DNA of 64,000 nt from Erythrobacter sp. NAP1 (lineage in GTDB: Bacteria > Pseudomonadota > Alphaproteobacteria > Sphingomonadales > Sphingomonadaceae), in the NCBI RefSeq assembly GCF_000152865.1, contig NZ_CH672390.1:1-64000 (forward strand), written 5' to 3'. Positions within the stretch are counted from its first letter, which is position 1, and each line of letters begins with the position of its first letter. The notes below the pieces were generated by a model, which saw only the letters and a program-made list of their open reading frames with translations, did no database searches and was not told the origin of the DNA. The position numbers and the translations under genes are program-made. Shown in pieces: positions 8,034 through 55,446 of the stretch.

Positions 8034-9506
8034 ATGTCTGATTACATACTCGTCCTCGACGAAGGCACCACGTCGACCCGCGCCATGCTGTTTGCGAGCG
8101 ATGGCGTGCTTGTCGCGAGCGCGCAGGAGGAACTGACCCAGCATTATCCGCAAGCTGGCTGGGTTGAACATGACGCGAGCGAGATATGGGAAAAGACCTT
8201 GAAATGCGCGCTCGAGGTGATCCCAAAGGCGGGCGGCCCTGCGATGATCGCAGGCATCGGCATCACCAACCAGCGCGAAACGGTGGTAGCTTGGGACAAG
8301 GAAACGGGTCAGCCGCTTACCCGCGCCATCGTCTGGCAGGACCGCCGCACCGCTCCGTTTTGTGCCGAGCTTCGCGCAGGCGGCCATGAAGAGGCGGTGC
8401 AGCGTAAGACCGGCTTGCTGCTCGACCCCTATTTCTCAGGCACCAAGATGCGCTGGATGCTCGATAACGTCCCCGAAGTGCGCGCCGCAGCCGATGCTGG
8501 CACGCTTGCCTTCGGGACGGTTGAAAGCTGGCTGGTGTTCAAGCTGACTGCTGGCAAAAGTCACATCACTGACGCCAGCAATGCGAGCCGCACCCTTCTT
8601 ATGGGCCTCGCGGATGATGGCTTCGACGAGGGGCTTTGCGAGCTTCTCGGCGTGCCGATCTCGGCGCTGCCTCAGGTGGTCGATATGTCGGGAAGCCTCG
8701 CTGAAACCGATCGTTCGGTCCTTGACGCGGCTATCCCGATTGCGGGTCTTGCTGGCGATCAGCAATCCGCGACCATCGGGCAGGCTTGCCTTTCACCGGG
8801 CGAGACAAAGGCGACGTACGGAACGGGGGCGTTCGTGCTCACCAACCAAGGCGAGAACATTCCGCTCTCGGCCAACCGAATGCTCGGCACTGTCCTGACG
8901 CAGCTGGATGGCAAGCGAACCTATGCGATCGAAGGCTCGGTTTTTGTCGCGGGGAGTCTCGTTCAGTGGTTGCGCGATTCCCTTGGTATCGTCGAGGTCG
9001 CGAGCGAGACCGAGAAACTCGCTCGTTCGATCCCGGACAGCGGCGGCGTCACCATCGTGCCCGCTCTGTCAGGGCTTGGCGCGCCCCACTGGCGAGCCGA
9101 TGCTCGCGGGGTCATCACAGGGCTAAGCTTTGCGAGCGGCAAGCCGCAACTGGCGCGCGCCGCGCTCGAGGCGATGGCGCACCAGACCTACGATCTCGCC
9201 GATGCTTTCGCCGCCGATGGTGCTGCGTGGCAGACGCTGCGCATCGACGGCGGGATGGCCGCGAACGACTGGATGGCTCAGGACCTTGCCGACATGCTGG
9301 ATGTAACGGTCGAGCGCCCTGGCTTCATCGAGACGACGGCATTGGGGGCGGCCATGCTCGCAGCGGCGGGCGTGGGGCTTTACCCCGATCTTGCGAGCGC
9401 TGCTGAAAAGATGCGCGGTGAGCTTACGAGCTTTGCGCCATCTATGAGCGAGAATGTGCGCGAGGAGCGTTTGGCGCGCTGGCGCAAGGCTCTTGAAGCG
9501 GTCTAG
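8034..9506 (+). CDS. glpK: Glycerol kinase
   Basis: A 490-residue FGGY-family kinase that converts glycerol to sn-glycerol 3-phosphate with ATP. The N-terminal phosphate-binding segment is DEGTTSTRAMLF (most homologues have DQGTTSSRA). Glycerol-binding and domain motifs follow: TNQRETVVAWDKETG, WQDRRTAP, AGDQQSATIGQA, YGTGAF and DGGMAANDW. The length is typical. The ribosome site AGAGAGGG precedes the ATG. No glpF or glpD is adjacent. The TAG stop lies inside a short repeated motif (CTAGCGAGGAC), described separately as a copy of the intergenic hairpin family. Confidence 0.97.
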   Translation: MSDYILVLDEGTTSTRAMLFASDGVLVASAQEELTQHYPQAGWVEHDASEIWEKTLKCALEVIPKAGGPAMIAGIGITNQRETVVAWDKETGQPLTRAIVWQDRRTAPFCAELRAGGHEEAVQRKTGLLLDPYFSGTKMRWMLDNVPEVRAAADAGTLAFGTVESWLVFKLTAGKSHITDASNASRTLLMGLADDGFDEGLCELLGVPISALPQVVDMSGSLAETDRSVLDAAIPIAGLAGDQQSATIGQACLSPGETKATYGTGAFVLTNQGENIPLSANRMLGTVLTQLDGKRTYAIEGSVFVAGSLVQWLRDSLGIVEVASETEKLARSIPDSGGVTIVPALSGLGAPHWRADARGVITGLSFASGKPQLARAALEAMAHQTYDLADAFAADGAAWQTLRIDGGMAANDWMAQDLADMLDVTVERPGFIETTALGAAMLAAAGVGLYPDLASAAEKMRGELTSFAPSMSENVREERLARWRKALEAV

Positions 9507-9537
9507 CGAGGACGAAGCCGCACATGCGGTTTCGCAT
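9503..9537 (+). repeat. Partial copy (D) of the intergenic hairpin-repeat family
   Basis: CTAGCGAGGAC (9503-9513) is followed by a hairpin whose arms GAAGCCGCA and TGCGGTTTC (9514-9533, one G-T pair) close a two-base loop, then GCATA. The same linker followed by a different but also self-complementary stem is found at 10273 and 27859. The first bases include the glpK TAG stop. It lies between the convergent genes glpK and DUF1465, so it may act as a bidirectional transcript end. Confidence 0.6.
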
Positions 9538-10008: not shown

Positions 10009-10130
10009 TCAGGGGTTTCGCTACGCCTCACGGGGCCGCGTTACCAGCTGCCCATGGTTACTATACCGTTGTCGTTTCTGTGGCGTCCCGTTGCGGTACA
10101 TTATGAGGGCGCGTTTAACGCTTTGTTAAA

Positions 10131-10190
10131 TTCGCCCGCTGCGGGCGCGCAGTCGCGCTTGCGACGCCTGCGGCGTCGATTTAGCGCGAC
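10131..10190 (-). repeat. Inverted partial copy (A-left) of the intergenic hairpin-repeat family
   Basis: Two adjacent hairpins can be seen: CGCCCGCTGCGGGCG (10133-10147) and GACGCCTGCGGCGTC (10163-10177), the latter after CTTGC. Read on the minus strand the order becomes hairpin, GCAAG, then the CGCCCGCAGCGGGCG hairpin, which is the order found on the plus strand at 10209-10310 and 27793-27895. A-left and the full copy at 10209 therefore face each other as an inverted pair about 20 bases apart. Confidence 0.65.
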
Positions 10191-10208
10191 CTCATTTGTG
10201 GAGCACTG

Positions 10209-10310
10209 GTTTCGGCTGCGCTGAAGCCGCAAGGCCGACTGGCCGCCCGCAGCGGGCGCGGCTTGCCGCGCATCTAGCGAGGACTTGCCCCCGGATGGGG
10301 GCACGCAAGG
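10209..10310 (+). repeat. Full copy (A) of the intergenic hairpin-repeat family
   Basis: In order: hairpin ending AGCCG, GCAAGG linker, CCGACTGG, palindrome CGCCCGCAGCGGGCG, a short second palindrome around CTTGCCGCGCAT, linker CTAGCGAGGAC, then hairpin TGCCCCC-GGAT-GGGGGCA and a terminal GCAAG. The copy at 27793 has the same order and linkers but different stem sequences that still pair. Together with A-left it fills most of the 304-base gap between DUF1465 and the downstream YdcH gene. Confidence 0.7.
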
Positions 10311-10312
10311 TA

Positions 10313-10510
10313 TCACGCGATGATATCGGGCAGCAGCGTGTCCTCGATGATCGCTATCTGATCCTTGAGGCGCAGTTTGCGCTTCTTGAGGCGGGCGATC
10401 TGCAGCTGATCGGTCGAACCTGCATCGGTCAGCGCGGTTATGGCGGCGTCGAGGTCACGATGCTCGGTGCGCAGCAGTTCGAGCCGTTTGAGAAGCTCCT
10501 GCTCATTCAT
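10313..10510 (-). CDS. YdcH/DUF465-family small protein
   Basis: A 65-residue charged helical protein (MNEQELLKRLELLRTEHRDL, then RLKKRKLRLKDQIAIIE). The spacing of Glu-His-Arg-Asp-Leu and the Lys/Arg-rich C-terminal helix KKRKLRLKDQI are typical of YdcH (DUF465). These are short coiled-coil proteins of unknown function. A second, divergent member lies 0.3 kb away on the other strand at 10804. Confidence 0.85.
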   Translation of the reverse strand: MNEQELLKRLELLRTEHRDLDAAITALTDAGSTDQLQIARLKKRKLRLKDQIAIIEDTLLPDIIA

Positions 10511-25858: not shown

Positions 25859-27259
25859 CTAAACGTCTGTAATCACGCCATAAAGGTCGTGAGCATCGGC
25901 GTCTTCAACCTCGACGTCAACGATCGCGCCGGGTTCGAGCGTTTCGGGTACATTGCGCAGGTAAACCGCACCGTCGATCTCGGGCGCGTCGGCCTGGCTT
26001 CGTCCGGTTGCGCCAATGTCGCCGTCCTCATCGGGTTCGCCCACATCGTCGATGATGACGGGCAGGGTCTTGCCGACCTTGGCTGCGAGCTTGGCGGCGG
26101 AAATGCGCTCGGTCACTTCCATGAGACGGGCGTAGCGCTCTTCCTTGACCTCTTCGGGCACGGGGTTCGGCAGGTCGTTCGCCGCCGCGCCTTCTACGGG
26201 CTCGAAACGGAACGCGCCGACGCGGTCAAGCTGCGCTTCCTCGAGCCAGTCGATGAGGTACTTGAAGTCGTCTTCGGTCTCGCCGGGGAAGCCGACGACG
26301 AAGCTGGAGCGCACGGCGATCTCGGGACAGATTTCGCGCCATCCCTTGAGGCGTTCGAGCACCTTGGCCTCGTTCGCCGGACGCTTCATCGCCTTGAGCA
26401 CGTTCGGGCTCGCATGCTGGAACGGGATGTCGAGATAGGGCGTCAGCAGTCCCTCGGCCATCAGCGGGATGACCTTGTCGACGTGGGGGTAGGGGTAAAC
26501 GTAGTGGAGCCGCGTCCACGGAGCCTTGCCTTCAGCGGTGCGCAGTTGGCCAAGCTCACGGGCGAGGTCGGTCATGTGCGCGCGCACTTCGCGCGTGTCC
26601 TGTCCCATTGGCCACGGCCTCGCCTCGTGCCGCGTATCGACGCCGTAGGCGCTGGTGTCCTGGCTGATGACCAGCAGCTCCTTCGTGCCTGCCGCGACCA
26701 GCTTCTCCGCCTCGCGAAGCACCGCGTCGATCCGGCGACTGGCGAGCTTCCCGCGCAGCTGCGGGATGATGCAGAAGGCGCAGGAGTGATTGCAGCCCTC
26801 GGAGATCTTGAGATAGCTGTAATGGCGCGGCGTCAGTTTGACGTCTGGCTGCGGGATGAGGTCGATATACGGGCCCTGCGATGGCGGGGCGTGTTCGTGA
26901 ACGGCCTCGACGACCTGCTCGTACTGGTGCGCGCCGGTGACGGCGAGAACCTGCGGGTGAGCGGCGCGGATCGCCTCGGCCTCATCGCCCATGCAGCCGG
27001 TCACGATAACGCGACCGTTCTCGGCAATGGCTTCACCGATGGCGGCAAGGCTCTCTTCCTTGGCGCTGTCGAGGAAGCCGCAGGTGTTGACCAGCACGAC
27101 GTCGGCGCCCGCGTAATCGGCGCTCATCGCATAGCCGTCTGCGCGCAGGCGGGTGAGGATACGCTCGGAATCGACCAGCGCCTTGGGGCAGCCGAGCGAG
27201 ACCATGCCGACGCGCTTGGCGTCCGCCAATTGACGGGGGGTCGTGGTGGCAGTTGTCAT
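25859..27259 (-). CDS. rimO: Ribosomal protein S12 methylthiotransferase
   Basis: A 466-residue radical-SAM enzyme that methylthiolates an aspartate of ribosomal protein S12. The N-terminal cluster-binding domain has [27 protein letters not shown] and VTGCMG. The radical SAM motif is [18 protein letters not shown], and a C-terminal TRAM domain runs from about residue 385. The [12 protein letters not shown] form distinguishes RimO from MiaB. It is divergent from the DUF1761 gene at 27369. Confidence 0.96.
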
Positions 27260-27368
27260 GATGGCCGCGCCCTTACACCGGATGTTGAGGAAGTGCCAGA
27301 GTGTGCAGCTTTCCTACATCGCCGCATCGCGCTACCAAGTGCACCGGGTCGATCAGGGGAGAAGAGAG

Positions 27369-27767
27369 ATGGGCGATTTCGCATTATGGCCGGTGCTTGC
27401 GGGCGCGGCGGCGTTCTTCGTGGTCGGAGCGATCTGGTACGGGGTGCTGTTCGGCAAGGCGTGGCAGCGCGCGGCGGGCATGTCGGACGAAGACGTACAG
27501 GGCGGCAACATGGCTCTCATCTTCGGGCTGACATTCGCATTCGAGATGCTGATCGCAATGGTGCTGTGGCACCTGATCGCGCGCACTTCGCCAGAGCCAC
27601 ATGTGGTGATGATGATGTCGATCGGTTTCGCGGTCGGAGTGATGATCCCGGCGGTCGGGATCAACTACCTTTACCAGCGAAAGAGCGGGATGCTGTTCGC
27701 AATCGACTCAGGCCACTTCATCGCGGGCATGGCGGCGATGGGCGGGGTGTTCTTGTTGTTCTTGTAA
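27369..27767 (+). CDS. DUF1761-family membrane protein
   Basis: A 132-residue protein with four predicted helices: WPVLAGAAAFFVVGAIWYG, ALIFGLTFAFEMLIAMVLWH, MSIGFAVGVMIPAVG and the C-terminal AGMAAMGGVFLLFL. This is typical of DUF1761 (unknown function). The ATG at 27369 is preceded by GGGGAGAAGAGAG. A longer frame upstream would overlap the rimO start and is not favoured. The 134-bp gap to the convergent K+ channel gene is filled by hairpin repeat copy B. Confidence 0.82.
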   Translation: MGDFALWPVLAGAAAFFVVGAIWYGVLFGKAWQRAAGMSDEDVQGGNMALIFGLTFAFEMLIAMVLWHLIARTSPEPHVVMMMSIGFAVGVMIPAVGINYLYQRKSGMLFAIDSGHFIAGMAAMGGVFLLFL

Positions 27768-27792: not shown

Positions 27793-27895
27793 GGATCGAA
27801 CCCGTCGGGGTTCGCAAGGCCGACCGGCCGCCCGCAGCGGGCGCAGCTTTGCTGCGCGTCTAGCGAGGACGCTCACCCGGATGGGTGAGCGCAAG
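27793..27895 (+). repeat. Full copy (B) of the intergenic hairpin-repeat family
   Basis: In order: hairpin CGAACCC-GTCG-GGGTTCG, linker CAAGG, CCGACCGG, palindrome CGCCCGCAGCGGGCG, a short AGCTTTGCTGCG palindrome, linker CTAGCGAGGAC, then hairpin GCTCACCC-GGAT-GGGTGAGC and a terminal GCAAG. Linkers and loop match copy A (10209-10310). The outer stems differ on both sides so that pairing is kept. It occupies the space between the convergent DUF1761 and K+ channel genes. Confidence 0.72.
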
Positions 27896-27901
27896 ACAAC
27901 A

Positions 27902-29005
27902 CTACTCGCCGTTGCCGTTGCCGTTGCCGTTCCCATTGCCGTTGGTCGAGGGCACGATCTCGACGATCACGTCGCCGGGCTGGAGGTTCTGGCACTCCTC
28001 CTCCCAGAAGCCGATGGCGCGGCCATTGCGATAGACGCGAAGGCCCCTGCCGCCGGTCGAAAGCTCGGTGATCGAGCAACCGCATTCCTCTTCGGTCACA
28101 ACACGCTCGACAAGGTGAACGCGGCCCGAAACCGAAGCGAGGTCGGCGAGGTAGTCGGCGATATGCGGGCCGTTGGCGGAGCCTGCGAGAAGGAGACCGG
28201 TGAAGCGCACCGGGTTGATGACGTTGTTTGCACCCGCCTGCCGCGCCAGCAGTTCGTTGTCGTCGGCGCGCACCACCACGCTGATCGGCACCTTGGGAGC
28301 GAGGTGGCGAACGGTGAGCACGATGAGGATCGAGGTGTCGTCGCGGCCTGCCGAGACAAGCACGTTCTTAGCCATCGACACGCGGACGGCCTTCAGCGTC
28401 TCGTCTCGGGTTGCATCGGCGGCAATCACGTTGACGCCGAGCTTCTCGGCTTCCTTGAGACGCTCCTCGCTAGGGTCGACCACGACGATGTCGTCGGCTT
28501 TGGTTCCCCGTTCGATGAGTTCCTCGACGCTTTGCGAACCCGACACGCCATAGCCGAGGACGACCACGTGATCCGAAAGCTTCTCCTGGATACGGGCCAT
28601 GCGCCACTTCTCCCAGCTGCGTTTGATGATGAAGTTGTAGGCTGTGCCCACGAAGATGAAGAACACCGCGAAACGGATCGGGGTGACGATGATCGCTTCC
28701 TTGAGCCGCGCGCTGTCCGTGACCGGGGCTATGTCGCCAAAGCCGGTGGTCGTGATCGAGATCATGGTGAAGTAGACCACATCGAGGAAGCTCACATCCC
28801 CATCGACGCTGTCGACCAGGCCGTCGCGGTCCCACCAATGGATCATGACGACGATGAAGATGAGGAACAATGCGGCGCCAAGTCGGATCGACAGGTCGCC
28901 CCAGACCGGCAGCTTGACTGCACGCCTCAGCGGCTTGAGCCGCTTTTGCACCGGATGCCTGCCCCGCTGGTTCGAGATCGTCGTCTGAGGTTCGCGCTTC
29001 GCCAT
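27902..29005 (-). CDS. K+ channel with TrkA-N regulatory domain and NG-repeat tail
   Basis: A 367-residue protein. A first helix (IRLGAALFLIFIVVMIHWW) is followed by the pore helix and selectivity filter SITTTGFGDIAPVTDSARL near residue 85, and a second helix (RFAVFFIFVGTAYNFII). A cytoplasmic TrkA-N/RCK Rossmann domain (VVVLGYGVSGSQSVEELIE) and a C-terminal segment complete it. The layout is that of a two-helix RCK-gated potassium channel. It ends in Asn-Gly repeated six times then Glu, encoded by a GTTGCC hexanucleotide run at 27905-27945, which is unusual. It is the last gene after surE and serS on this strand. Confidence 0.9.
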   Translation of the reverse strand: MAKREPQTTISNQRGRHPVQKRLKPLRRAVKLPVWGDLSIRLGAALFLIFIVVMIHWWDRDGLVDSVDGDVSFLDVVYFTMISITTTGFGDIAPVTDSARLKEAIIVTPIRFAVFFIFVGTAYNFIIKRSWEKWRMARIQEKLSDHVVVLGYGVSGSQSVEELIERGTKADDIVVVDPSEERLKEAEKLGVNVIAADATRDETLKAVRVSMAKNVLVSAGRDDTSILIVLTVRHLAPKVPISVVVRADDNELLARQAGANNVINPVRFTGLLLAGSANGPHIADYLADLASVSGRVHLVERVVTEEECGCSITELSTGGRGLRVYRNGRAIGFWEEECQNLQPGDVIVEIVPSTNGNGNGNGNGNGE

Positions 29006-40602: not shown

Positions 40603-40677
40603 TGGTGGGCGCGGCAAGGATTGAACTTGCGACCCCACCCGTGTGAAGGGTGTGCTCTACCACTGAGCTACGCGCCC
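40603..40677 (-). tRNA. tRNA-Val(CAC)
   Basis: A complete cloverleaf on the minus strand. The acceptor GGGCGCG pairs with CGCGCCC and an encoded CCA follows. The D-arm is GCTCAGTGGTAGAGC, the anticodon stem CACCC/GGGTG encloses loop TTCACAC with anticodon CAC, and the T-arm contains TTCAATC. It is downstream of sppA on the same strand. A TTGCAA-N17-TAAACG box pair about 60 bp upstream could be its own promoter. Confidence 0.95.
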
Positions 40678-42805: not shown

Positions 42806-43834
42806 ATGGACAACACGCCAACTTCGAGCGCAGCTGACCGCTTTCCCGCGGGTCGGCTCGCCTTTCCGCATCGCGATCTCACCGGCATCGGCCAGCTTGA
42901 ACGGCATGAGATCCTCTATCTTCTCGATCAGGCGGCACAGTGGGTCGAGCTGAACCGGCAGCGCACAAAGCACACCGAGCTCCTTTCCGGTCTCACTATC
43001 ATCAACGCCTTCTTCGAGAACTCGACCCGTACGCTCCTGTCCTTCGAGATTGCGGGCAAGCGGCTGGGTGCGGATGTCGTCAATATGCATGCCGCGCAGT
43101 CGAGCGTGAAGAAGGGCGAGACGCTGATCGACACGGCGATCACATTGAACGCCATGCGCGCCGATGCCATCGTGATCCGCCACGGGTCGAGCGGGGCGAC
43201 ACAGCTGATCGCGGACAAGGTCGATTGCCCGGTCTTGAACGCAGGCGATGGTCAGCACGAACACCCGACGCAAGGCCTTCTCGACGCGCTGGCTTTGCGC
43301 GAAGCTCTGGCGCAGCAAGGGCGGGGCAGCCGCGATGCGCTCGCTGACTTTACCGGTCTCACCATAACGATCTGCGGCGATATCCTGCACAGCCGCGTCG
43401 CACGCTCCAACATCCTGTGCCTTCAGGCGATGGGGGCAAGTGTGCGCCTGTGTTCCCCCCCTGCGCTGATGCCGCGAGGGGTTGAGGCGATGGGCGCGCA
43501 GCCCTTCCACGACTTTGACGCAGCCCTCGACGGCAGCGATGTCGTGATGATGCTGCGCCTCCAGTCGGAGCGCATGGCGGGTCAGTTCATCCCTTCGGCG
43601 CGCGAGTATCACCATCTCTACGGCCTCACTCGGGAGCGGCTGAAGCGCGCGGCGCCCGATGCGCTCGTCATGCATCCCGGCCCCATGAACCGGGGTGTCG
43701 AGATCGACAGCGACGTTGCCGATATGCTCGACCGTTCGATCATCACCAGCCAGGTGGAGATGGGGGTCGCGATCCGCATGGCCTGCCTCGACGTGCTGAC
43801 GCGAAGCGCGCGCGGTGTGGAGGGCTGGTCATGA
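42806..43834 (+). CDS. pyrB: Aspartate carbamoyltransferase catalytic chain
   Basis: A 342-residue enzyme of pyrimidine synthesis that carbamoylates aspartate. Substrate motifs are [20 protein letters not shown] (carbamoyl phosphate), [18 protein letters not shown] and LQSERM, with [11 protein letters not shown] near the C-terminus. A GTG at 42797 lies three codons earlier; ATG at 42806 is preferred because AAGGG (42791) then has normal spacing. The stop overlaps the next gene by 4 bases (ATGA). No pyrI regulatory chain gene is present, consistent with the PyrB/PyrC'-type arrangement. Confidence 0.96.
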
Positions 43835-45066
43835 AGCAGGCACGGCCACTTACCATCACAGGCGGCAAGCTCGTCACACCCGGCGGCGTCGAAGCGGGCG
43901 CACTGCGCATGGCCGACGGCCTGATCGAGGCTGTGGGCGCTGACGTCAGCGCCCGCGATGGCGACGAAGTGATCGACGCTAAGGGCAAGCTAATTGCGCC
44001 CGGCATCGTCGATTTCGGCGTATTCGCGGTCGACAAGCCCGCCTTCCATTTCGGCGGCATCACGCGCGCAGCGTTGATGCCTGACCAGTCCCCGCCGCTC
44101 GATTATCCGAGCCGGGTCAACTACATTGCCAAGAGCGGGAAGCCCGATCTGTGGGTTCATCCGCTTGCCGCCGCGACACGCGGGCTCGAAGGGGCCGAAC
44201 TCGCCGAGATTGCACTGATGCGCGATGCGGGCGCGCGCGGTGTGGCGACCGGGCGCAAGTGGATTGCCGATAGCGGCGTCATGCTGCGCCTGTGCCAGTA
44301 CGCCGCGATGCTGGGCCTCGTCGTGGTCGCCCATGCCGAGGATAGCGGGATCGCGGGCGAGGCTGCTGCGACCGCAGGCGAGGTCGCAACGCGCCTCGGC
44401 TTGCCGAGCGCACCTGCCGAAGCAGAGACCCTGGCGCTCGCACGCGACATCGCGATTGCCGAGATGAGCGGGGCGAGGGTGCACTTCCGACAGGTCACTA
44501 CGGCAGCGGGCTTCGACCTCGTGCGCTCAGCCAAGGCGCGCGGCGTGAGCGTGACCTGCGGGATAACGCCTGCGCATTTCATGCTCTCAGACCTCGCGAC
44601 AGCCGACTTCCGCACATTCACGCGCCTCTCGCCGCCCCTGCGCAGCGAGGCCGACCGCCAGGCCGCACGCGCTGCGATCGCAGATGGGACGGTCGATGTC
44701 ATCTTGAGCGGCCACGACCCGCGAGGGCCAGAGGACAAGCGGCTCCCCTTCGCCGATGCGGCTCCCGGCATGGCGGGGGCCGAGACGCTGCTCGCCATGG
44801 TGCTGGGGCTGGTGCGCGATGAGGTGATCGACCTGGGCCGCGCTTTTGATCTGCTCGCCGCCAATCCGGCGAGGCTGCTCGGCGTTGAGGCGGGAGCGTT
44901 AGAGGTCGGACGCGAAGCCGATGTCGCGCTGATCGATCCCGACGCACCCTGGTTTGTCGACCGAACCAAGATGGAAGCCACTGCCGACAACACGCCCTTC
45001 GACCGCCAAGGCGCGCAGGGGCGGGTGAGGGCGCTTATCAAGGGCGGTGTTTTGGTCGAGCTTTGA
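43831..45066 (+). CDS. Dihydroorotase-like protein lacking catalytic residues (PyrC'-type)
   Basis: A 411-residue amidohydrolase-fold protein of the class I dihydroorotase group. The metal-binding HxH motif expected after APGxVD (normally DxHVHLREPG) is replaced by DFGVFAVDK (residues 61-69). The catalytic Asp segment (normally TDHAPH) reads SGHDPR (293-298), and the HxST histidine position is Gln in [13 protein letters not shown] at 168-171 is kept. It is translationally coupled to pyrB (4-base overlap). In Pseudomonas a similarly inactive PyrC' is needed to assemble aspartate carbamoyltransferase, so a structural role is inferred. Confidence 0.85.
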
Positions 45067-45253: not shown

Positions 45254-45356
45254 CTGAGATCGCCCATCCGGGCGATCATCCTCGGCGCTGTTCCTTCGCT
45301 TCGCTACGGGCGCCTGCGGACGGGCGGTCGCCCTTGCGACACCGCTGGTGTCGAAG
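45254..45356 (-). repeat. Full copy (C) of the intergenic hairpin-repeat family, minus strand
   Basis: Read on the minus strand: hairpin CGACACC-AGC-GGTGTCG, CAAGG linker, GCGACCG, a diverged CCCGTCCGCAGGCGCCC segment, a GCGAAGCGAAGG region, AGCGCCGAGGAT (compare AGCGAGGAC), then hairpin GATCGCCC-GGAT-GGGCGATC (45258-45277). Order, linkers and the CCCGGATGGG loop match copies A and B. A further GGAGCC-CGAA-GGCTCC stem and GCAAG follow at about 45391-45416 on the plus strand. Confidence 0.6.
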
Positions 45357-55361: not shown

Positions 55362-55446
55362 GCGGGCGTGGCGGAATTGGTAGACGCGCTGGTTTTAGGT
55401 ACCAGTATCGCAAGATGTGGGGGTTCGAGTCCCTTCGCCCGCACCA
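55362..55446 (+). tRNA. tRNA-Leu(UAG)
   Basis: A class II cloverleaf with acceptor GCGGGCG/CGCCCGC and encoded CCA. The anticodon stem CTGGT/ACCAG encloses loop TTTAGGT with anticodon TAG. A long variable arm (TATCGCAAGATGT) and T-loop TTCGAGT follow. Total length 85 nt with CCA. A TTGCCC-N17-TAGAGG box pair about 40-65 bp upstream is a possible promoter. It lies just upstream of tig. Confidence 0.96.

Follow-up and report, generated by a model that had tools for sequence, protein, structure and literature searches.

A dispersed family of multi-hairpin intergenic repeats in Erythrobacter sp. NAP1 and related genomes

The window analyzed here, a stretch of 64,000 nucleotides from Erythrobacter sp. 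NAP1, contains several copies of a structured repeat. Read on the element's own strand, the unit follows the order H1-CAAG-H2-middle cassette-CGAGGAC-H5-GCAAAACAAA, where H denotes a hairpin; it measures approximately 110 nt and forms four or five hairpins. Copy A (10212..10308, plus strand) is flanked by two minus-strand genes, encoding DUF465 and DUF1465 proteins, and the stop codon of the DUF465 gene (10313-10510, minus strand) lies 8 nt beyond the end of its H5. Facing copy A head-to-head across a 32-bp spacer is the left half of A (approximately 10131..10179, minus strand), in which only H1, CAAG, H2, and H3 remain. Copy B (27796..27894, plus strand) is preceded by a DUF1761 gene (27243..27767, plus strand) ending 28 bp ahead of it; its tail is touched by the stop codon (27902-27904) of the convergent TrkA_N / ion channel gene (27902..29005, minus strand), 11 nt from H5. 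Copy C (45254..45354, minus strand) is an exception in its placement, the nearest facing end on the tail side, that of the plus-strand gene 43831-45066, being approximately 190 bp away. Finally, D (9503..9537, plus strand) consists of a linker and H5 only. The TAG of its linker (9504-9506) is the stop codon of an FGGY kinase gene, and the DUF1465 gene ends (9547) 13 nt past the end of its H5. D is a deletion remnant of a full copy; the closest relative, genome G021, has a complete copy where D represents the 3' half alone. As proposed in an earlier note made from the sequence alone, copies B, C, and D sit between convergent genes.

The CAAG and CGAGGAC motifs and positions of the tail are nearly invariant. 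The stem of H1 is variable and its loop is frequently CGCAG or GCA, while H2 is exemplified by GGGC GACC GCCC. The linker ahead of H5 reads CGAGGAC or close to it. H5 itself has an 8-bp stem, with G-C at the first position in 173 of 217 fixed-frame stems, and a loop of GGAT (154) or GGAG (41) among 220 linker-anchored copies; it is followed by an A-rich tail near GCAAAACAAA. The middle cassette occurs in at least three forms, as typed by eye. Type I comprises CCCGCAGCGGG, a hairpin such as GCAGCTTTGCTGC or longer, and GTCTAGCGAGGAC; type II comprises GCAGGTGC, an inner hairpin, and AACAGCACCGAGGAC; type III comprises GCAGCGACGCG... and ATGAGCGAGGA.

Copies A and B are both of type I. With limits set by hand, copy A is composed of H1 (10213-10229), CAAG (10230-10233), H2 (10233-10244), H3 (10245-10257), H4 (10258-10269), the linker GCATCTAGCGAGGAC (10270-10284), H5 (10285-10304), and a tail from 10305. 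Copy B, delimited likewise, is composed of H1 (27797-27814), CAAG (27815-27818), H2 (27818-27829), H3 (27830-27842), H4 (27843-27855), the linker GCGTCTAGCGAGGAC (27856-27870), H5 (27871-27890), and a tail (27891-27901). Copy C has a type II cassette (GCAGGCGC...GCGCCGAGGAT) and its H5 at 45277-45258. Although the earlier note described one module order for all three copies, they do not have every linker in common: C carries another cassette and has neither CTAGCGAGGAC nor a GCAAG tail. The CGCCCGCAGCGGGCG palindrome is exact in A and B only. All of the stems that had been quoted were found on direct reading, but H2, H4, and the A-rich tail had been overlooked.

By itself, the linker is weak evidence for a family. 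It occurs in the window four times with at most one mismatch against 1.1 expected, a count reached by 3 of 100 shuffles, and its exact form occurs 11 times in the genome versus six for the pattern read backwards; one of these 11 matches (L010) lacks a hairpin by eye. The palindrome is stronger evidence, with eight matches of at most two mismatches in the window against 0.64 expected and 0 of 100 shuffles reaching this number, although several of the eight are one place counted on both strands. We built a covariance model, R1, with 98 positions, 29 pairs, and five hairpins, using a hand-drawn structure and ten aligned copies of the NAP1 genome, including A, B, and C. The copies that had been proposed from the sequence are real: they are the top five R1 matches in the window. 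The three members of the training set rank first (B 109.5, A 100.6, and C 72.3 bits), followed by the left half of A (47.7 bits for the match 10091-10179) and D (25.5 bits, E 0.0014); the sixth-best match has an E of 0.03. Single-sequence folding compared with shuffles gave z scores of -3.6 for B, -2.2 for C, and only -1.1 for A. At gathering scores, Rfam reports just two tRNA genes in the window (40606-40677 and 55362-55443).

The family extends well beyond the window. The NAP1 genome (3.27 Mb) contains 36 R1 matches at E<=0.1, the last few of them weak, in a count that rests on 150 of 5656 first-look candidates scored with R1. At E<=0.001, R1 matches all 37 genus genomes searched (NAP1 included) and none of 24 genomes from the other families of the order. 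Such searches of the genome and of other Sphingomonadales were advised in the earlier note. Many copies and the controls support its proposal of a family whose hairpins covary and whose linkers are conserved, and show that the family is dispersed. In a GTDB sample of the family, 55 of 249 genomes match at E<=1e-4, spread over 27 of 96 genera. The linker pattern was found in at least 113 stretches of named genomes; among the 80 listed, nearly all belong to Erythrobacter, Qipengyuania, Aurantiacibacter, Alteraurantiacibacter, Porphyrobacter, or unnamed Erythrobacteraceae/Sphingomonadaceae. Linker stretches from a Planctomycetaceae MAG, an Oscillospiraceae MAG, and Tsukamurella gave no R1 match at E<=1e-5. 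Carriage by plasmids or phages was considered and dropped, as one query (copy L042) returned zero matches against either. A known RNA family was also rejected: Rfam searches of the window and five further loci (up to E 5) returned nothing on the elements. No publication naming the family was found in the literature searched, and the earlier note likewise knew of no named family with these linkers. The repeat family is thus real and, as far as searched, unnamed.

The stems covary far beyond shuffles, including at one orthologous site. Across 96 model-aligned copies, paired cells amount to 91.5% compared with 70.0% in shuffles, and 26 of the 29 pairs have changed on both sides. The covariation score for these copies is 0.466 versus 0.120 when shuffled, with 0 of 500 shuffles as high, and it drops to 0.02-0.05 when partner columns are slid by 1 to 3. 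This alignment was fitted to R1 and thus leans towards the model, for which reason an unfitted test was run: H5 was cut in a fixed frame from all 239 distinct windows with TCTAGCGAGGA. The Watson-Crick fraction of H5 was 0.849, compared with 0.487 (maximum 0.520) when 3' arms were shuffled among copies. H5 was recognizable in 220 of the 239 windows, and when only the 113 distinct arm pairs having a GGA loop were counted, the fraction was 0.895 versus 0.521 shuffled. At the orthologous site behind a LytTR regulator gene, 14 distinct H5 arm pairs reached 0.929 versus 0.671 (maximum 0.795), as judged from 22 fixed-frame rows with at least five of eight pairs, one of which (L432) is misframed.

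The folded molecule may be RNA or, as the earlier note also allowed, extruded DNA. Folding of one strand as RNA would be expected to make G.T better tolerated than A.C on that strand. We applied this test to distinct arms of H1, H4, and H5, H2 being unparsed. The ratio of G.T to A.C favors the element's own strand in H5 (40:23, p 0.04) and H1 (14:4, p 0.03), while H4 points in the opposite direction (7:14, p 0.19). Covariation and the near invariance of CAAG, CGAGGAC, and positions of the tail would suit a dedicated structured RNA, small or protein-binding, that is expressed from each copy and uses the linkers as contacts. We nevertheless regard such an RNA as improbable: Rfam has no match, the copies stand behind unrelated genes in the few cases examined, and single sites gain, lose, and switch type.

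Placement was assessed with genes called by a simple codon-usage caller. Among the 187 copies that had neighbors called on both sides and overlapped no gene, the 3' end of a gene faces the tail side in 139, and lies within 30 bp in 117 of the latter. The H1 side, which serves as a control, has 110 genes whose 3' end points to the element, and in 43 of these the distance is at most 30 bp. Copies overlap a called gene in 18 of 220 cases. A tail-side gene was called for 209 copies and is facing in 153 and non-facing in 56; in 111 of the 153 facing copies, the stop codon starts 3-15 nt from the end of H5. Copies A and B are missing from the 153 because the caller was wrong beside both, reporting an opposite-strand ORF instead of the DUF465 gene and TrkA gene respectively, and errors in the opposite direction are possible as well. 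Gaps between convergent genes hold 78 of the 187 copies, compared with 107 of the 479 gaps that measure 100 bp or more at the same loci, element-bearing gaps counted in. Both this distribution and the gene-end position would be expected of a family of intrinsic transcription terminators. However, neither strand has a T tract after H5, given an A-rich tail on one (220 copies) and GTCCTCG on the other, and a separate terminator-like hairpin is seen by eye beside some copies; terminators are consequently a poor prospect as an explanation.

Many copies are organized in inverted pairs. Among 178 matches at 145 loci, 24 close neighbors (at most 200 bp apart) were counted, of which 23 are head-to-head, two of these duplicating another locus, and one is tandem. 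Spacers measure 12-90 bp and are mostly approximately 30 bp. Tandems were seen at L047 and L444, the latter found later together with an additional head-to-head pair (L452). The NAP1 genome has four pairs, at 10091/10212, 1564085/1564237, 3107685/3107838, and 3118337/3118448, the first being A and its truncated left partner. In 20 distinct pairs outside the window, type I is combined with type II in 17 as typed by script and 18 as typed by eye; the latter added L046 and L139, which have members marked '?', and removed L141, whose left member resembles type III. Pair L027 combines a type III member with an untyped one. No I/I pair occurs among the 20 distinct pairs typed, and II/II pairs are undersampled, since type I patterns guided the search for loci and the model was trained largely on type I copies. 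A frequent form is a head-to-head combination of type I and type II around a spacer of approximately 30 bp. Tandem matches on the same strand were observed at L457 (1199-1494, up to three) and L444 (1253-1494).

Individual sites show turnover. Of 61 genus genomes, 60 match the genes flanking copy A and 50 those flanking copy B; the best 30 loci of each were compared. At both sites, the element is present in two of the best 30 loci, namely in NAP1 and its closest relative G021 (E<=0.01), the absences being less sure where contig ends cut loci (e.g. L230, L235). We then compared 35 of the 36 NAP1 copies with G021, leaving out 2866420. Of the 34 that could be placed (1484238 was not located in the G021 stretches compared), 18 are retained, three have an empty site (187932, 414583, 2593209), and 13 are replaced, rearranged, or partly deleted. 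Other genomes (L197, L263, L358) do have an element at 187932, so that G021 may have lost it there. Conversely, the G021 copy at 3102563 is absent in NAP1, which has 12 bp instead and a facing gene that ends differently. Visual inspection of the empty sites displayed, the junctions of which have diverged, revealed no evident target site duplication, and no insertion was caught in the act among the sites compared, loss being possible at each.

The 13 changed sites include three that switched type in the same place and orientation (320870, 551187, 2921405) and two with a single copy in one species and a pair in the other (2275937, 2838226). At 551187, both species have the same 5' half, unusual H2 insert included, but differ in the 3' half; at 2275937, they have H5 and the tail in common and differ in the middle. 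Recombination between copies is the simplest reading of these mixed halves, and repeated insertion at one spot could also have produced them. Covariation in the family, which had been taken to reflect selection on the fold, has in part come from exchange of whole hairpins or halves among copies rather than from stepwise compensation, and this suggests more widely that covariation among repeat copies could arise partly by whole-hairpin swaps. In separate observations, the copy at 488896 (L034) lacks 44 internal bases that are present in the closest relative (L331), and at site 2579585 (L022 versus L410) the relative has approximately 340 extra, apparently coding, bases where NAP1 has a single copy.

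Copies that are retained appear to be constrained. Over the 18 retained copies, 99 of 1714 positions differ within the element, compared with 1921 of 16810 in the flanks, and in every one of the 18 the element has diverged less (Wilcoxon p 7.6e-6); these copies are not fully independent, as D, the half copy, and members of pairs have common flanks. To count as retained, a copy had to show no more than 16% difference and less than 20% deletion, a definition that selects for similarity and so favors conserved copies. The split between retained and changed sites is natural, with differences of 0.01-0.14 versus 0.25-0.47 (truncated copy 1555057 excepted), yet the selection bias remains: when all 28 sites whose insert could be aligned are taken, including those where it was replaced, divergence shows no difference between element and flanks (Wilcoxon p 0.55). 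The earlier claim that selection acts on the fold and not the sequence is only half right. The two-species comparison supports selection on retained copies, but several linker, loop, and tail positions are almost invariant too.

These patterns also bear on the possibility that the family is a purely selfish or relic non-autonomous repeat, which survives behind stop codons since insertion elsewhere would be harmful and whose fold is kept for transposition, through single-strand hairpins, rather than for use by the host. Site turnover, empty sites, and head-to-head pairing suit mobile DNA, and the preference for G.T over A.C in H5 (40:23) and H1 (14:4) is compatible with a strand-specific single-strand process. 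However, retained copies are approximately half as divergent as their flanks though no Y1 enzyme that could use them was found in NAP1 or in 57 of 61 genus genomes, and the spacing to the stop codon is narrow. We consider this explanation unlikely, while giving it appreciable weight.

The PF01797 (Y1) family covers RAYT and IS200/IS605 transposases. The REP-type transposase gene sought at the suggestion of the earlier note was not found: PF01797 has zero matches in the NAP1 genome, in a search that was positive in 5 of 14 control genomes. Present-day mobilization of the RAYT/IS200 type is thus unsupported for NAP1, the transposase search having covered the Y1 class. Among 61 genus genomes, PF01797 matches four and is absent from 57. 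An autonomous parent was also considered at two 8-kb loci (L071, L083) with copies approximately 1.3 kb apart, and discarded, as the interval between the copies opens with a gene that by eye resembles a phage-type capsid gene rather than a transposase. At these loci (L071 4076-5529, L083 2324-3782), the tails point inward around the capsid-like gene, which possibly belongs to a gene transfer agent or prophage.

The closest comparison is with the CGTC-tagged REPs, in which the unpaired tag (CGTC, or TGTC/CCTC) stands in front of the stem. In the present family, the minus strand reads GTCCTCG right after the H5 stem, so that CGTC is obtained there only by including the last stem base. The sections of the published survey drawn on here describe CGTC-tagged REPs as typical of alphaproteobacteria, predominantly head-to-head dimers with several families forming heterodimers, and without a dedicated transposase (Di Nocera et al. 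2013, PMC3733652). In the same sections, the unit is a single palindrome of 20-40 bp with A-T at stem positions 1 and 2 and a CCA tail, the stem of family 1 spans 8 bp and encloses a loop of 4, and most CGTC REPs between convergent genes of Sphingomonas wittichii lie at most 20 bp from ORF 3' ends (PMC3733652). They also name 'E. lithoralis' as carrying REPs inside genes, the tag type being unspecified in that text (PMC3733652). The Erythrobacter family resembles these REPs in its head-to-head pairs (23 of 24 close neighbors) with rare tandems, its position near ORF 3' ends (111 of 153 facing stops within 15 nt), its 8-bp H5 stem, and the lack of a visible Y1 transposase in the NAP1 genome. 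In contrast, its unit spans approximately 110 nt and combines several hairpins with conserved linkers instead of being a 20-40 bp single palindrome; it has a GCAAAACAAA tail instead of CCA, a first stem pair that is mostly G-C instead of A-T, and apparently no CGTC in front of the stem. As a result, the family behaves like CGTC REPs, yet we do not file it as a member, given the differences in unit size, tail, and stem base.

Likewise, dispersed palindromes, inverted pairs, and location behind genes are shared with the REP/REPIN systems associated with RAYTs, but there is no GTAG at the base of H5, as in GTAG-tagged REPs/REPINs, and no RAYT (Y1) in the genome. BOX elements are of modular build. 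They belong to another phylum, and we liken them to this family by description, not by sequence or modules. The portion of the pneumococcal study used here presents BOX as short, highly structured intergenic repeats of slow turnover (PMC3049150).

A recurrent site lies behind a LytTR response regulator gene. When 126 copies were clustered by facing gene, 63 clusters resulted, and the largest (n=14) corresponds to this regulator, with LytTR and Response_reg domains by Pfam; in L419 the regulator gene is followed by a quinolinate phosphoribosyltransferase gene. The regulator was matched in 59 of 61 genus genomes and its 3' side was read in 50. The element is present in 26 of the 50 (R1 matches at 16 of 30 and 10 of 20 loci), always oriented alike, its tail placed at the stop codon. 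As scored with simple patterns, 12 are of type I, 11 of type II (including the truncated L439), two of type III, and one is H5 only; L458, scored as none, has a nearby match on the other strand. L424, L440, and L441 (type II) and L425 (type I) have identical H5 arms and nearly all tail letters in common, which points to exchange of the middle cassette within what may be one inherited element. In the other 24 genomes, some have palindromes of other families and many have nothing evident. The notion that every genome needs a hairpin there is therefore not supported.

Taking these lines together, we favor, with moderate confidence, the view that the family is a long, modular relative of the REP/BIME class that provides hairpins at transcript 3' ends, has no known transposase, and is reshuffled by recombination. 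The role at transcript 3' ends is likely but unproven. Copies would have spread as a non-autonomous insertion by an enzyme that was lost or has so far gone unrecognized. Once behind a stop codon, the hairpins may be kept by their action on the transcript, through ribosome pausing at termination, protection of the mRNA 3' end, or both. The common linkers could then let copies recombine, so that cassettes and hairpins are swapped. A review of 1988 on REPs reportedly asks in its title 'evolution by gene conversion?'. The REP/BIME-like reading has a further published parallel (PMC12306157). Several observations stand against this explanation: 56 of 209 copies have no facing tail-side gene, copy C lacks one nearby, H4 makes the strand test inconsistent, and 16 of 34 sites are not retained.

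A more speculative extension, which we hold tentatively and think rather doubtful, is that the copies are transposase-free, self-maintaining hairpin cassettes, in which those at gene ends swap hairpins and type cassettes by recombination at the linkers. If true, cassette exchange preserves a fold behind the stop codon while the sequence is continually replaced, and the 3' ends of genes are interchangeable structural slots. REP repeats, familiar for decades, may be either parasites or tools. The present family would allow a clean test of this question, offering long units with recognizable parts, orthologous sites with and without an element, retained copies less diverged than their flanks, and a LytTR site with three exchangeable types in 26 of 50 genomes. 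Other palindromes were observed at that site. On the 3' side of the NAP1 regulator gene (L460, G000:C1, approximately 2733200-2733330) lies a palindrome, CGTCATCGC...GGCGATCCA, that looks like a classical CGTC-tagged REP rather than a copy of the present family, and a palindrome in L433 was likewise read as a CGTC-type REP; L420, L429, and L437 have another palindromic repeat there, with arms CTGAGCCTGTCGAAG.
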